A stretch of DNA of 64,000 nucleotides, from contig PBSL01000009.1 in the NCBI GenBank assembly GCA_002726205.1, positions 1 to 64,000 of the forward strand. The letters are read 5' to 3'. Below, in pieces: positions 7,298 to 17,377 of this stretch (position 1 is its first letter; each line of letters begins with the position of its first letter). This DNA is from Planctomycetaceae bacterium. Lineage in GTDB: Bacteria > Planctomycetota > Planctomycetia > Planctomycetales > Planctomycetaceae. A program made the translations under genes and the position numbers. The notes beneath the pieces were generated by a model. The model did not search any database. It worked only from the letters and a program-made list of their open reading frames with translations, and was not told where the DNA came from.

Positions 7298-8023
7298 CTA
7301 CCCTACCGCGTCGAAACGGCCACGACCAGTCCGGGCATCATGCCACCACAGGGCTGTAAAGATCGGCACCAGCAGCAACGCCGCCCACTGGTACCCGGTC
7401 CATCCCCCCCACAAGCGAACCTCCGGTCTCAGGAACTCGGTAGCGAATCGGAAGACGAAGTACAGCAGGAGGTAGAGCTTGATGAGTTGTCCACGAAGCA
7501 GTCCGTCGCGGCGCATCACGGCCAGCGCCACTCCGCACGCCAGGTGAAACGCCGTTTCGTACAACTGCGTCGGATGCCGCGACACCCCGTCGCCAAAGTC
7601 GATTCCCCAGGGGGCCGAGGTGGCGATCCCGTGACAACAGCCGTTGGTGAAACAGGCCAGCCGGCCGATCGCGACAGCCACCGGCACCGAGACGGCAAAG
7701 CTGTCCCCGGTGCTGACGCGGACACCCGACCACCACTTCGCCAGTTCAACTCCCACGTACCCGCCCACCAGCCCGAGCATGATCGTCTTGCCGTCGGCCA
7801 GCAGGGCGCGACCGCTAAGCAGTGCCGCCCAGTCGCCGTCGACAACATACACCAGCACGAATGGCAGCTTCGCCGCCAGGAATCCTCCACTGAAAGCCCC
7901 CAGGCCCACCATCACTCGCTGGTGGAACGACAACCCGAGCCGGGCCTGGCTGTCCCGGGACAACCAGGCGGCCACGGCCACCGCGGCCAGCATGATGGCC
8001 GCGTAGGTGAATCGACCACTCAT
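7298..8023 (-). CDS. Lgt-like integral membrane protein (prolipoprotein diacylglyceryl transferase family)
   Basis: A 241-residue membrane protein with about six to seven hydrophobic segments. Two Lgt hallmarks are clear: GRLACFTNGCCHG (residues 120-132) and RHPTQLYE (149-156), followed by the FRFATEFLRP segment typical of the C-terminal part. True Lgt enzymes move a diacylglyceryl group from phosphatidylglycerol to lipobox cysteines. Here the region where E. coli Lgt has its His-Gly-Gly motif reads TIMLGLVGG, without a histidine, so the reaction may differ. The start was set at 8023 because ATG overlaps the radical SAM stop as ATGA; an upstream frame extension has no signal features. The tight coupling suggests joint action on lipids. 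It could also be a second, divergent Lgt. Confidence 0.85.
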   Translation of the reverse strand: MSGRFTYAAIMLAAVAVAAWLSRDSQARLGLSFHQRVMVGLGAFSGGFLAAKLPFVLVYVVDGDWAALLSGRALLADGKTIMLGLVGGYVGVELAKWWSGVRVSTGDSFAVSVPVAVAIGRLACFTNGCCHGIATSAPWGIDFGDGVSRHPTQLYETAFHLACGVALAVMRRDGLLRGQLIKLYLLLYFVFRFATEFLRPEVRLWGGWTGYQWAALLLVPIFTALWWHDARTGRGRFDAVG

Positions 8024-9519
8024 GGGGAGGCGACCGCGGCCAGTTCGGCCAGCCGATCGAGCGTGGGCAACGGGACGTGGCCCTCGCGGTACAACACGTT
8101 GTAGGCGCAGAACGGGACCACGTGTCCGCTGGGCAACACGTGGTGGATGCAGCACTTCATCACGCGACGGACATCAAAGTTGTAGGCATCCAGGAACGAC
8201 GTGATCGTGATCCTGAAGACGTCCTCGGGGTCGAGATCTTCGGCCAGTGCCCGTTGGAAAAACTCCAGCGGCAGCGAGTCGTCGCCGGCCGGCACGATCG
8301 GTTCATCGGTCAGCAGCGGCAGCTGAAGATCCGCGACAGGTGCCGACGACGAGGACGGTGTGCCGCAACCCTCGGGACCACAACAGCCCAGCCGACCAAG
8401 GTAGGTCTCGATCAACTCGCGTGCCCGCGGGCGGTTGAACGTGATGCCGTTGGCCAACAGGTCGGTGTTGTGCCTGGCATCGATGAAACGCAGCAGCGGG
8501 ATCGCCCGATCGCCGGAGCGGTAGGCGTAGCTGAGCGTGTGGCAGTTGGGATGAGCGCACGGCAGCGGCATGAAATCATCGGCTGTGAACAGGCCGTTCG
8601 TCTGCGATTCGATCAGCGAAACCACCTCGGGAAACGTGATCCGGTTTTCGATCATCTCGGGCAATACGTGTCGCCCACTGTAGGTCGCCGGCTGCAAGCT
8701 GATCCCGGTCACCCACGATCTCTTCAATCCGTATTCGACGATGGCTCCGAGCTCGTCCTCGTTGACGCCTGGTTGGACGGTCGTGACCAGGGTGGTCCGC
8801 AGGCCCAATGCTCCCAGGGCTTCGACGGCCAGCTGCTTTGTTTCGACCAACGCCTCGCCGCGAAGCGCCTCGTAGGTCGTGTCGCGGAAACCATCGAACT
8901 GCAGGTAGATTTCGAGTCGATGGCGGTAGGCGGCGACGGCCTCGAGGAATTTCGGGTCGTGGGCGAAACGGATGCCGTTGGTGTTGATCATCACGATGTC
9001 GATCGGCTGGCCGCAGGCGTAGTCGAGGATCTCGAGGAACTCGGGGTGGATCGTCGGTTCGCCGCCGGAGAGCTGCAGTACCTCGGGCCGGCCCTCGACC
9101 TCGACCAGTCGGTCGATCGCTTGCCGGCTCTCTTGCAGCGACAGGTGCCGACCTCCCGGCCCGCTGGATGCGTAGCACATCGGGCACGACAGGTTGCAGG
9201 AATCGGTCAACTCGACCAGTCCCACGCAGGTGTGTTGTTCGTGCTCGGTACACAGCCCGCATTCGTACGGGCAGCCCTTGCCGGTGGAGGTCACGCCGAC
9301 CTGTTGCGGGATCCTGCCGGGAACACTGAATTCAAGACGGTCGTAGCTGTTGACGTCATTGCAGATGAAATCTTCGCGTGAACCGTGGGTCGGACAGTGC
9401 TTGCGGAAATACACGCGGCCACCCCGCTCGATGATCTTCGCCGGCACCAGCGACAGGCACTCCGGGCAAAGGCTCTGTGTCATCCCGAGAAAGGTGTGGT
9501 CGCGAAATGTCGTGGACAT
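8020..9519 (-). CDS. Radical SAM enzyme resembling tetraether/membrane-spanning lipid synthase (Tes/MJ0619-like)
   Basis: A 499-residue iron-sulfur enzyme. The N-terminal part has a CPECL pair (Cys18/21) and HCPTHG (Cys42), like a rubredoxin-type site. CPYECGLC follows (Cys83/87/90), then the radical SAM triad CNLSCPMC (Cys108/112/115) and the GGEP motif. More cysteines lie in the C-terminal half (CAHPNC and CCGPEGCG) and near the end. This order, including the LCTEHEQHT stretch after the second cluster, matches archaeal Tes proteins, which join lipid tails in the membrane, and bacterial relatives proposed to make membrane-spanning lipids. The assignment is by motif memory, not a search. The stop overlaps the start of the Lgt-like gene (ATGA). 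A substrate other than lipids is possible. Confidence 0.8.
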   Translation of the reverse strand: MSTTFRDHTFLGMTQSLCPECLSLVPAKIIERGGRVYFRKHCPTHGSREDFICNDVNSYDRLEFSVPGRIPQQVGVTSTGKGCPYECGLCTEHEQHTCVGLVELTDSCNLSCPMCYASSGPGGRHLSLQESRQAIDRLVEVEGRPEVLQLSGGEPTIHPEFLEILDYACGQPIDIVMINTNGIRFAHDPKFLEAVAAYRHRLEIYLQFDGFRDTTYEALRGEALVETKQLAVEALGALGLRTTLVTTVQPGVNEDELGAIVEYGLKRSWVTGISLQPATYSGRHVLPEMIENRITFPEVVSLIESQTNGLFTADDFMPLPCAHPNCHTLSYAYRSGDRAIPLLRFIDARHNTDLLANGITFNRPRARELIETYLGRLGCCGPEGCGTPSSSSAPVADLQLPLLTDEPIVPAGDDSLPLEFFQRALAEDLDPEDVFRITITSFLDAYNFDVRRVMKCCIHHVLPSGHVVPFCAYNVLYREGHVPLPTLDRLAELAAVASP

Positions 9520-9564: not shown

Positions 9565-9819
9565 CTAGAAACGAAACAGTATCGAGCAGCCGATGAAGAA
9601 CGCGGCAACGGCGGCCAGCAACACCACGGCGGCACAACCGACGCCGGTCAGCCCCCGCGCCCAGCCACTGCCGCCCGAGGTCGCCGAGACGCTCCACTGG
9701 GGATCGACCGAATCCAGGAGATTGCCGCAGTTGGTACAGGAGGTCGAGTCCAGCGAGGTCTGGGATCCGCAATGCGGGCAGGCAATGGTCATGTCGCCGC
9801 CATCGGGCGAGTCAGGCAT
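9565..9819 (-). CDS. Small zinc-ribbon protein with C-terminal membrane anchor
   Basis: An 84-residue protein. Two CxxC knuckles (CPHCG at about 14-18 and CTNCG at 28-32) form a zinc ribbon of the kind found in many short planctomycete proteins. A linker follows, then one transmembrane helix (about 60-80) ending in LFRF. The ATG at 9819 was chosen because the open frame continues upstream only as the antisense of the divergent dehydrogenase gene. It lies between the radical SAM gene and that dehydrogenase, on the radical SAM strand. Function unknown. Confidence 0.75.
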   Translation of the reverse strand: MPDSPDGGDMTIACPHCGSQTSLDSTSCTNCGNLLDSVDPQWSVSATSGGSGWARGLTGVGCAAVVLLAAVAAFFIGCSILFRF

Positions 9820-14097: not shown

Positions 14098-15465
14098 ATG
14101 GCGCGGGGTGGCAGTGCGGTGCGGGGTTTGGCCGAGTTGGTCACCTGTATTGCGATCGCGGTCACGTTGCTGAAGGGGTTCCTGGTGGAGGGATTCCTGA
14201 TCTCGACGGGATCGATGGCCCCGCAACTGCTCGGTTTCCACAAGCGGGTCACCTGCCCCGAATGCGGGTTTGAGTTTGCCCGGGGAGTCAACGTGGACGA
14301 TCCCGCCTCACGGTCCCCGCTGGCCACCTGCATCAACTGCGGCCAAACCGGCATCGCCATCACCGGTGTCCCCCGCAACGAGGGGGACCAGTTGCTGGTC
14401 CACAAGTTGCCGTGGGTGTTCTCGCAGGTGAAGCGATGGGAGCCGATCGTGTTTCGGCGACCGGGACGGGCGACGATGGCTTTCGTGAAGCGGGTGATCG
14501 GTTTGCCGGGCGAGTCGGTGCAGATCAGAGGTGGCGATGTCCACGTCGATGGTCGGTTGTGTCGAAAAACACTCGCCCAACAACGCGCCACCCGCGTTCC
14601 AGTCTACGACGACCGGTTTCGGCCGGCTGGCGGTTCCACCCGCTGGACCCTGGGCCGGGGGTGGTCGGATACCCGGGGCCGTTTTCGTTTCAAGCCGACG
14701 CAGGCGGCGACCAGTTGGCTCGAATACCACCACCTTGACGTTGACCAGCCCGGACCGGTCCGGGATCGGTACCCGTACAATCCACGAGAACCCAGGTCCC
14801 GAACCCACCGGGTTCGGGATCTGATGCTGACGCTGCGTGCGGTCGAATCGGTCGGGTCGAACCGGCCGGGCCGATTGAGGATTGAACTCGACAGTGCGAC
14901 ACACCGGGTGGCGTGGGTTCGCGACCTTGGCCGGGGTCGGCAGTGGCTGGAAATCGACGGACGCAAGGGGGCCCCCGTCGGGTTGACCGGCGGCACCGCC
15001 GAGAAGTCTCGCGTACTGGAATTCTCGACCGTCGACCAAACGCTGCAGGCCACCGCCGACGGTCGCCAGGTGTTTCCGGCCTACCCGTTAGATACCGGGA
15101 AACAGCCTGCGGTCGAGGACGCGTCGGGTCTGGAGAGGCCGTTGTTGAGGCTGGGCGCTGCCGGAGGGGTGTTGTCGATCACCGGTATCCGCATCGACCG
15201 CGATGTCTTCTATCGTGGGAGTCCCCGGCAGAATGCGACCGGTACACCCTGGAAGCTGGGGCCGAACGAGTACTTCATGCTGGGGGACAACAGCCCGGTT
15301 TCACTCGACAGCCGTTCGTGGTCGATTCCCGCCGTGCCCGCTCGACTGATCATCGGACGGCCCCTGCTGTTGCACCTGCCGTCACGTCAATGGGAGTTGA
15401 GGATCGGGAATTCGTCCCGATACATCCGCATTCCCGACCTCGGTCGAATCCGGTATATTCGCTGA
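14098..15465 (+). CDS. lepB: Signal peptidase I, large form with zinc finger (first copy)
   Basis: Membrane-bound S26 protease that removes signal peptides. A single N-terminal membrane helix (about residues 11-30) is followed by the catalytic serine box STGSMAP (Ser39) and the catalytic lysine in FVKRVIGLPGE (Lys131). The C-terminal box MLGDNSP completes the fold. Two insertions make it 455 residues, against about 320 in E. coli. One is a CxxC..CxxC zinc finger (about 53-83) between the Ser and Lys boxes. The other is a roughly 220-residue segment between the Lys box and the C-terminal box. It directly abuts lepA. A second, still larger paralogue follows 52 bases downstream, with a TATATT sequence between them at 15454-15459. 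Confidence 0.9.
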   Translation: MARGGSAVRGLAELVTCIAIAVTLLKGFLVEGFLISTGSMAPQLLGFHKRVTCPECGFEFARGVNVDDPASRSPLATCINCGQTGIAITGVPRNEGDQLLVHKLPWVFSQVKRWEPIVFRRPGRATMAFVKRVIGLPGESVQIRGGDVHVDGRLCRKTLAQQRATRVPVYDDRFRPAGGSTRWTLGRGWSDTRGRFRFKPTQAATSWLEYHHLDVDQPGPVRDRYPYNPREPRSRTHRVRDLMLTLRAVESVGSNRPGRLRIELDSATHRVAWVRDLGRGRQWLEIDGRKGAPVGLTGGTAEKSRVLEFSTVDQTLQATADGRQVFPAYPLDTGKQPAVEDASGLERPLLRLGAAGGVLSITGIRIDRDVFYRGSPRQNATGTPWKLGPNEYFMLGDNSPVSLDSRSWSIPAVPARLIIGRPLLLHLPSRQWELRIGNSSRYIRIPDLGRIRYIR

Positions 15466-15517: not shown

Positions 15518-17377
15518 ATGGCCAACGCAGCCGACTCTCAGCCGAAGACCACCACCTCGGCAACCGATCTGCTGAGGGACAAGGAGCCTGAGCGGAAGGG
15601 GGGCTGGCGGGAGACGATCGAGTCGTTCGCGATCGCATTCATCCTGGCGTTCGTGTTCAAGACCTTTGAGGCCGAGGCGTTTGTGATTCCGACCGGGTCG
15701 ATGGCACCGACCCTCTACGGGCGGCACAAGGACGTTGACTGCGAGAAGTGCGGCCACGGATTCTCGATTGGAGCCAGTGACGAACTCGAAGAGGACTGGC
15801 TGCAACCGGTCTACCGGATCGACTCGGCATACTGTCCCAATTGCCGGTTCGAAAACGACGTCCGCGAGCTGCCAGTCTTCAAGGGTGACCGAATCCTGGT
15901 CAACAAATTCCCTTACGAGTTTGGTGAGCCCAGCCGCTGGGACGTGGCGGTGTTCAAGTATCCCGAGGAACCCAATACGAATTACATCAAGCGGCTGGTC
16001 GGCCTGCCCGAGGAGACCCTGGTGATCCACCGCGGGAACCTCTACCGGGAACTCCCCGACGGCAGCCGCGAGATTCTCAGGAAGGATGACCCGGACAAAC
16101 AGAACGTGTTGCAGATCATGGTTCACGACAACGACCACCTGGAGACCGAGTTGCACCAGCGAGGTTGGCCACGCCGCTGGGCCGCGGTCCGTCGTGACTT
16201 TGATGACCCGAGGGCGGTGGCTGGTTGGGTCGAGACTTCTGACGGCTGGGCAGAGACTGACAGCGGTCGCGCATTCACGCTGCCGGTCGGCGAAACGCCG
16301 GCCTGGTTGCGGTATCGACATTTCGTGCCGCGACCGGAGACCTGGGTTGCGACCGAGCCGCTGGGCACCTCCCGGCCTCGCCTGATCACCGATTTCTGCG
16401 GGTACAATGCCTACGAGGGTGGTCGCAGCAGCGGCGGTCGAGACCAGGACTTTTACTGGGTCGGTGACCTGACGATGAACTGCCGGGTGACGATCGGCGA
16501 GGTCGGCGACCAGGCACGACTGGTGCTGGAACTGATCGAGGGCCGTCGCCGCTTTCGCGTGATCCTGGACCCGGCCGGAACCGTCCAGGTGACATCGAAA
16601 ATCGATTTGAACCGGGGTGCGGACGAGGAGGAACTGCTGGGCCAGGCCCGGATTCCTCGATTGGAGACGGGCTCGCACCAGTTCCGGTTTGCCAATGTCG
16701 ATGATCGGCTCTGCCTGTGGATCGATGACGACCTGGTCGAGCTGGGATCAGCCACGAGCTACCGCTGCGATCCGACCGAGTTCCCCGGTCCCGGAATTGG
16801 CGACCTCTCGCCGGCCGGAATTGCCGCCAAGGGTATCGAGTTGACCGTCGATCGCCTGCGGATTTACCGCGACATTTACTACCGGAGCGAGAAAGCCAGG
16901 GAGCCGAGCATGGCGGCCGATCCCGATTACAGCAAGGAGAGTACGAATCAGCTGGAGTTGTTGGCGAGTGTCGACGATCCGAGAGCGTGGGAGGAAGTGT
17001 ATTCTCAGACAGCCCACGAGGTCGTTTTCGAGCTCGGTCCCGACGAGTTCCTGATGCTCGGTGACAATTCTCCCAGGAGCAAGGACGGGCGACTGTGGGG
17101 GAATAGCCGCGGGGCCAAACATCGTCACGCGGTACCGCGATCGGCCCTGGTCGGCAAGGCCTTCTACATCTACTGGCCGCACGGGGTACCGTTCCTGAAC
17201 AACGGCCGCGGATTTCCCGACGACGGGGACTCGATCCTGGGAAAGATCCCGGTCATGAACCGATGGTTCTTTCATGTCGAGCCGTCGGTCGAGACCGGCC
17301 GTACGAAATTGACAGACTATCCGAATGTTCGCATCCCATTTTATCCCCAGTTCAGTCGAATGAGACGGATCCGTTAG
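15518..17377 (+). CDS. lepB: Signal peptidase I, extra-large form (second copy)
   Basis: Second S26 signal peptidase, 619 residues. A cytosolic N-terminus of about 30 residues precedes one membrane helix (about 36-50). Then come the catalytic box IPTGSMAP (Ser61), a four-cysteine zinc finger (CEKCG and CPNC, about 75-110) and the lysine box NYIKRLVGLPEE (Lys158). The C-terminal box is MLGDNSPRSKDGR (about 512-524). The region between (about 200-450) is a beta-rich, Trp- and Asp-containing domain resembling LamG-like or 3-keto-disaccharide-hydrolase-type jelly rolls; that resemblance is an impression only. Both active-site residues are present, so it should be active. Paralogy with the preceding gene suggests divided substrate sets. 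Confidence 0.9.
   Translation: MANAADSQPKTTTSATDLLRDKEPERKGGWRETIESFAIAFILAFVFKTFEAEAFVIPTGSMAPTLYGRHKDVDCEKCGHGFSIGASDELEEDWLQPVYRIDSAYCPNCRFENDVRELPVFKGDRILVNKFPYEFGEPSRWDVAVFKYPEEPNTNYIKRLVGLPEETLVIHRGNLYRELPDGSREILRKDDPDKQNVLQIMVHDNDHLETELHQRGWPRRWAAVRRDFDDPRAVAGWVETSDGWAETDSGRAFTLPVGETPAWLRYRHFVPRPETWVATEPLGTSRPRLITDFCGYNAYEGGRSSGGRDQDFYWVGDLTMNCRVTIGEVGDQARLVLELIEGRRRFRVILDPAGTVQVTSKIDLNRGADEEELLGQARIPRLETGSHQFRFANVDDRLCLWIDDDLVELGSATSYRCDPTEFPGPGIGDLSPAGIAAKGIELTVDRLRIYRDIYYRSEKAREPSMAADPDYSKESTNQLELLASVDDPRAWEEVYSQTAHEVVFELGPDEFLMLGDNSPRSKDGRLWGNSRGAKHRHAVPRSALVGKAFYIYWPHGVPFLNNGRGFPDDGDSILGKIPVMNRWFFHVEPSVETGRTKLTDYPNVRIPFYPQFSRMRRIR

Follow-up and report, generated by a model that had tools for sequence, protein, structure and literature searches.

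Tes (GDGT-MAS; MJ0619, PDB 7TOL, NCBIfam NF045702) is an archaeal radical SAM enzyme that couples lipid tails, and its C-terminal cluster, [Fe4S4]C, has been proposed to hold an S-C intermediate. TrsS (NCBIfam NF045646), which goes together with a DVU_1556-family methyltransferase, belongs to the same branch of radical SAM enzymes. Lgt (PDB 5AZB) handles diacylglyceryl groups of phosphatidylglycerol (PG); in the E. coli enzyme, H103 is located on the acceptor side and is thought to be used near the acceptor cysteine. The pocket of E. coli Lgt that handles PG is formed by two essential arginines, R143 and R239 (PMC4728403). The idea of a metalloenzyme and an Lgt acting on one small protein is known from the DAG-RiPPs, in which the metalloenzyme is an MNIO enzyme and lipidation runs through a signal peptide and the usual lipoprotein pathway (PMC12636315). 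Mss and Ger are bacterial enzymes of membrane-spanning and ether lipids (PMC11868695), and their likeness to the system described here lies in a proposed lipid function, by description only. Moreover, bacterial 'Tes homologues' have been used to predict the producers of brGDGTs and of related paleoclimate lipids, with Planctomycetota among those showing the most hits (PMC11868695).

The window analyzed here is a stretch of 64,000 nucleotides from a Planctomycetaceae bacterium (contig PBSL01000009.1). Its minus strand carries three same-strand genes between positions 7298 and 9819. The first, recognized from its reading frame, encodes a small membrane protein of 84 aa (9565..9819, minus strand) and ends 45 bp upstream of the gene for a Tes/TrsS-like radical SAM enzyme, P0001 (8020..9519, minus strand; 499 aa), which was identified by profile scores, phmmer and an AF2 model. 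The third encodes P0002, an Lgt-like integral membrane protein of 241 aa (7298..8023, minus strand), identified by its PF01790 score and an AF2 model. The stop codon TGA of the radical SAM gene and the start codon ATG of the Lgt-like gene overlap in an ATGA at 8020..8023 (minus strand), as read directly from the sequence. The first-pass annotation of this DNA had the coordinates, strand and overlap of the two larger genes right, and its gene content was incomplete in that the small membrane protein gene was missed. The pair is best explained as two thirds of a conserved three-part module. None of the papers found in an open-access library describes this radical SAM/Lgt-like gene pair.

Relation of the radical SAM enzyme to Tes and TrsS

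Among protein families, P0001 scores best against TrsS, with 341.9 bits, and does not reach the cut-off of 490; against Tes it obtains 294.5 bits, and the cut-off of 450 is likewise not reached. Sequence search with phmmer connects it to 7tol with an E value of 1.4e-75, and its AF2 model (pLDDT 82) matches 7TOL with an E value of 4.8e-39 and a TM score of 0.75, Tes being the closest solved structure. These comparisons support a predicted Tes fold for P0001. The profile and structure comparison of the 499-residue protein with MJ0619/Tes that had been proposed earlier thus gives the Tes fold and a score under the Tes cut-off.

Three metal motifs match those of Tes. A rubredoxin-like site, C18-x2-C21-x20-C42-x2-H45 (9385..9468, minus strand), is evident from sequence and conservation, and its spacing is identical to that of Tes, C9x2C12x20C33x2H36 (PMC9433317). 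Alignment to Tes places an N-terminal auxiliary [4Fe-4S] motif at C83, C87 and C90 with H93/H96 (9232..9273, minus strand), which precedes the radical SAM cluster motif C108-x3-C112-x2-C115 (9175..9198, minus strand; sequence and PF04055). The SAM-site Gln and Arg of Tes are also shared, as are three C-terminal cysteines, C326, C456 and C471 (span 8107..8544, minus strand), which are putative ligands of a C-terminal [4Fe-4S] cluster on the basis of their covariation. The motifs CPECL, CPYECGLC and CNLSCPMC and the C-terminal KCCIHH...PFC named in the first-pass annotation are all seen in P0001; the cysteine order that it called rare is the usual one in radical SAM enzymes of the Tes/TrsS branch. 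P0001 differs from Tes, apart from the score and the Lgt-like partner gene, in a non-aligning stretch that connects the core with the C-terminal domain and in the replacement of Met439 and Tyr459 by Thr440 and His460. These two Tes residues are fully conserved in 1000 archaeal Tes homologs, yet they are not essential in vitro (PMC9433317).

A further difference from Tes is the loss of the C cluster in many relatives of P0001. Of 83 close relatives, 41 have the complete set of three cysteines; the other 42 lack both C326 and C456, and 31 of them C471 as well. P0001 itself retains all three. In the sister clade that contains L120, C456 and C471 are always replaced and the set is incomplete in 20/20 proteins. 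The group of L152 and the actinobacterial groups show the opposite pattern, since they keep the equivalents of C326, C456 and C471 and have lost the N-terminal auxiliary motif. The Lgt-like partner is retained in the relatives without C-cluster cysteines and in the L120 clade.

These data bear on the earlier reading of the locus, in which the radical SAM enzyme joins lipid tails, giving lipids of the membrane-spanning or tetraether type that are also processed by the Lgt-like protein. Such a function would be in line with the predicted Tes fold and the presence of all Tes metal motifs, with the dispensability of Met439 and Tyr459 in Tes in vitro (PMC9433317), with the listing of 'Tes homologues' of Planctomycetota as candidate brGDGT producers (PMC11868695), and with an AU test in which a P0001 clade joined to Tes is not rejected (p 0.127). 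However, P0001 remains under the Tes cut-off with Met439 and Tyr459 replaced, half of the close relatives (42/83) and the L120 clade have lost [Fe4S4]C cysteines while retaining the partner, Tes equivalogs in the phylum occur without an Lgt-like gene, and the small cysteine proteins are left unexplained. We therefore regard tail joining as improbable, and for P0001 alone the idea of tail joining is weakened rather than lost because this protein still has the C-cluster cysteines. The fallback offered with it, anchoring of unusual lipids to proteins, comes closest to the explanation that we prefer, although it did not include the third gene.

Two Planctomycetota genomes carry Tes equivalogs over the cut-off, at 576 bits, that have the Met439 equivalent and no Lgt-like neighbor (L155:6793-8484 and L156:6760-8364); they are better candidates for membrane-spanning lipids in Planctomycetota. 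At five other loci (L125, L130, L135, L136, and L138), two or three divergent Tes-like paralogs lie side by side with no Lgt-like gene, and several of these paralog clusters also have genes for short-chain dehydrogenases and another radical SAM protein in their vicinity. They form a separate cluster type.

TrsS provides the second point of comparison. P0001 shares with it the best family score and the layout of metal motifs, and differs from it in falling short of its cut-off (342 vs. 490 bits), in having no selenocysteine, and in the absence of a methyltransferase partner beside the pair. It could be imagined that the enzyme is a TrsS relative working on a non-lipid small molecule containing sulfur, selenium, or arsenic, and that the product is held at the membrane by the Lgt-like protein. 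Besides the best family score, distant relatives in haloarchaea and Mycolicibacterium, which adjoin DVU_1556-type, ArsM-like methyltransferases, would speak for it. Nevertheless, the score is under the TrsS cut-off, no such methyltransferase is found beside the pair, and the surroundings lack shared redox or arsenic genes, which makes this possibility highly improbable. A Pfam search of 77 immediate same-strand neighbors revealed no shared lipid, redox, or arsenic gene. Among all loci, the DVU_1556-family methyltransferase occurs only beside L161, L162, L165, and L166 (Mycolicibacterium vanbaalenii and haloarchaeal plasmids), where a Tes/TrsS-like radical SAM gene is directly followed by a DVU_1556-like, ArsM-like methyltransferase gene. 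These loci represent a TrsS-TrsM-like pair in haloarchaea.

In a phylogenetic tree, one side holds all Lgt-linked proteins, separate from the Tes, TrsS-like, and tandem-copy groups; the root branch that sets them apart has weak support (82/51). P0001 is filed neither as Tes nor as TrsS because certain defining features tested for these families are absent from it; it is best explained as a member of a separate Tes/TrsS-like group that is marked by the Lgt-like partner. P0001 and P0002 may both still work on lipids in ways similar to Tes and Lgt.

The Lgt-like protein and its linkage to the radical SAM gene

P0002 passes the cut-off of the Pfam LGT family (PF01790; 103.1 bits, cut-off 24.9) and misses that of the lgt equivalog (TIGR00544; 51 bits, cut-off 118.9), which none of the Lgt-like family members tested passes. 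The only significant PDB match of its AF2 model (pLDDT 92.6) is 5azb, E. coli Lgt, with an E value of 1.4e-5 and a TM score of 0.67. The fold and donor-site residues of Lgt are retained, and the assignment to the Lgt family made in the first-pass annotation holds. By alignment, the Lgt signature region G120-R121..C130 (7634..7666, minus strand) corresponds to E. coli G142-R143.., and the donor site Y188..R192..E196..R199 (7427..7462, minus strand) corresponds to E. coli Y235, R239, E243, and R246; an equivalent of G154 is also shared. R121 and C124 are found in 101/101 family members, C124 standing for E. coli Asn146, and the donor site is conserved as Y in 100/100, R in 100/100, E/D in 99/100, and R/K in 98/98.

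The acceptor side differs from that of Lgt. The position of E. coli H103 is V86 in P0002 and V, L, A, or I in 95/101 family members, and the family adds an invariant K96 and D107 of its own. No conserved tyrosine was found in the N-terminal region of the Lgt-like family, in the area of E. coli Y26. The expected His-Gly-Gly had been noted as lacking, which is correct (V86-G-G vs. E. coli His103-Gly-Gly), but this loss alone is not diagnostic: the single other LGT-family protein of the genome (L113, at C37), likely its housekeeping Lgt, has Tyr at this position (LVLYGG), and genuine Lgt proteins with Tyr, Trp, or Phe there have been reported (PMC13251419). P0002 is a member of the LGT superfamily and not Lgt proper; it is not filed as Lgt because it misses the equivalog cut-off and has neither His nor one of the known substitutes Tyr, Trp, or Phe at the H103 position.

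Such a protein could have ceased to be a transferase and might instead present a lipid to the radical SAM enzyme or anchor it, with the small protein as a scaffold and with a lipid modification such as dehydrogenation, methylation, or ether formation as the reaction. The aliphatic replacement of H103 in 95/101 members and the missed lgt equivalog cut-off are both consistent with this. Conversely, the donor-site residues that are essential in E. coli Lgt are kept in about 100 divergent members, which argues for retained catalysis, and we consider a non-transferase role unlikely.

The two genes are closely linked. Of the 105 informative loci, collected from all sources, 97 have an Lgt-like gene within 1.2 kb of the radical SAM gene and on its strand. 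Gene order occurs either way, with the radical SAM gene first in 78 of these loci and the Lgt-like gene first in 20, a tally that takes in one Lgt-like gene beyond 1.2 kb. The median gap is -4 bp when the largest open frames are used, gene starts being assigned mechanically. Among 392 genomes of Planctomycetota, the two genes occur together in 41 and are both missing from 348; the radical SAM gene occurs without its partner in 3, and the Lgt-like gene in none. The two underlying genome lists were read off search outputs at score breaks, and the corresponding Fisher p value is about 2e-52 with relatedness ignored. Furthermore, where a Planctomycetia locus lacks a close Lgt-like gene, the genome carries one at another place in 10 of 11 cases. 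Pairing across genomes, which the first-pass annotation had suggested surveying, is thus far above chance, and its claim that the two genes are coupled is borne out by locus linkage and genome co-occurrence together, supporting the view that they form a functional unit.

The pair is distributed over Planctomycetota, Bacteroidota, and Actinomycetota, including Persicobacter, Nonomuraea, and plasmids of Mycobacterium avium and M. branderi, and the pairing is maintained at 30-40% identity. In this survey, whole-genome sampling covered Planctomycetota, other phyla were reached via plasmid records, and the 80 relatives of P0001 that were fetched are nearly all planctomycetal. No relatives were found in viral contigs. 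A role in anti-phage defense was rejected, as the only matches were generic viperin-like ones to the radical SAM core.

Small membrane proteins with a helix-end cysteine

The small protein of the window has an N-terminal zinc ribbon (CPHCG..CTNCG) and one C-terminal transmembrane helix that ends in ..AAFFIGC-SILFRF; its start could also be an internal ATG (MTIACPHCG). The zinc ribbon gives weak Pfam matches below cut-off (E 1e-5), and the gene is present as a single copy in the genome. The family was recognized by direct reading of the open reading frames adjoining the pair. Under a strict filter, 79 of 114 loci have a same-strand gene for a small membrane protein adjacent to the pair, where detection was partly guided by the motif already seen and some small reading frames in high-GC DNA may be spurious; among the loci without one, some gaps are contig ends and some are not. 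At least two copies are present in 22 loci, and up to four in L128. About 17 loci (among them L008, L020, L022-L024, L027, L028, L030, L039, L049-L051, L062, L070, and L158) also encode, upstream of the small proteins, a second conserved multi-helix membrane protein of about 240 aa.

An alignment of 19 diverse small proteins has a mean column identity of 22%, and conservation of at least 90% is confined to the start Met, the four zinc cysteines, and the helix-end Cys160. The cysteine closes the last helix or the one before it, is preceded by 18 hydrophobic residues in 110 of 117 non-redundant candidates, and commonly has Phe at -3 and -4. Its context, ..AFFxTC.., is not a lipobox, and the N-terminus holds the zinc ribbon and not a signal peptide with a lipobox. 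The zinc ribbon is absent in several clades (the L120 type, Persicobacter, and Mycobacterium), all of which keep the helix-end Cys. Lys and Arg are more numerous in the 20 residues before the helix than in the 16 residues after the Cys in 83 candidates, and fewer in 9. From this bias and the positive-inside rule, the Cys is predicted to face outward, where Lgt works. In addition, among 79 genomes of the class, all 11 with small-protein matches at E<1e-20 have P0001 homologs, and two genomes, G410 and G426, have a small-protein relative at E<1e-15 without a radical SAM gene.

Multi-copy genes located beside modifying enzymes usually encode substrates. One way to read this is that the radical SAM enzyme modifies the helix or the Cys of the small protein itself in a RiPP-like manner, after which the Lgt-like protein adds a lipid, the zinc ribbon serving for recognition. 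Tandem small genes beside a radical SAM enzyme do resemble precursor genes, and lipidated RiPPs made via the lipoprotein pathway exist, namely the DAG-RiPPs (PMC12636315). The radical SAM enzymes of Planctomycetia without the C cluster also occur only with small proteins that carry an extra segment after the Cys (30/30; Fisher 1e-8). We did not use this correlation as evidence because the cluster-less Planctomycetia proteins in the tree form one clade, and the correlation perhaps reflects one evolutionary event. Furthermore, nothing in the small proteins is conserved beyond the zinc ribbon and one Cys, and the enzyme has the predicted Tes fold and not a SPASM or RRE architecture. Modification of the polypeptide itself appears quite unlikely on balance. 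A classical short RiPP precursor was rejected separately, as no conserved family of 20-95 aa reading frames was found in more than 5 loci near the pair.

A candidate lipidation module

We tentatively favor, at somewhat short of even confidence, a lipidation module in which the Lgt-like enzyme lipidates the helix-end Cys with a PG-derived diacylglyceryl group, and either this lipid or the lipidated protein is the substrate of the radical SAM enzyme. The Lgt-like enzyme would use PG as its donor, given the donor residues that it keeps, and would move the diacylglyceryl group onto the small protein with neither a lipobox nor cleavage. The helix-end Cys would be a new type of acceptor, for which the acceptor side of the enzyme may have changed, and the radical SAM enzyme could then direct its radical chemistry at the tails of the lipid or at the helix that bears it. 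We infer every chemical step of this scheme, namely the identity of the small cysteine proteins as lipid acceptors, the transfer reaction, and the radical chemistry, from the gene linkage, the folds, the kept and lost residues, the conserved Cys, and its predicted outward topology. Compared to the DAG-RiPPs, the module would rely on an Lgt-like protein of its own and on a Tes-like enzyme, and its helix-end cysteines would remain uncleaved.

Several observations stand against the lipidation module. The H103 position on the acceptor side is aliphatic and the cysteine context is not that of a lipobox; the small protein is adjacent in 79 of the 114 loci, with its zinc ribbon missing in several clades; and G410 and G426 have a relative of it and no radical SAM gene. 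A lipid substrate for the radical SAM enzyme would be in keeping with its fold and gene company. A more specific version, in which the Lgt-like enzyme lipidates the multi-copy small proteins and the radical SAM enzyme links or reshapes the tails as part of a new protein-lipidation system, perhaps giving membrane-spanning protein-bound lipids, is unlikely.

The usual company of the pair, small and often multi-copy cysteine membrane proteins, suggests that lipids on membrane proteins are attached or altered in a manner not recognized so far. If the lipidation module is real, membrane proteins would receive lipids by a new route, and would do so in bacteria that are in culture, since the hosts include Blastopirellula marina, Lacipirellula, Botrimarina, Aeoliella, Persicobacter, and Nonomuraea; the small proteins have about 60-250 residues. 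If the Lgt-linked group does something other than Tes, counts of 'Tes homologues' would overstate the number of lipid producers, and a neighboring Lgt-like gene could be used as a simple exclusion flag.

Two other gene arrangements were observed. On the M. branderi plasmid, two genes for DUF3558-type probable lipoproteins lie directly upstream of the Lgt-like gene (L167:3201-4258). Elsewhere in the window, at 14098-15465 and 15518-17377, there are two neighboring signal peptidase I-like genes with large internal insertions and Cys-rich motifs.
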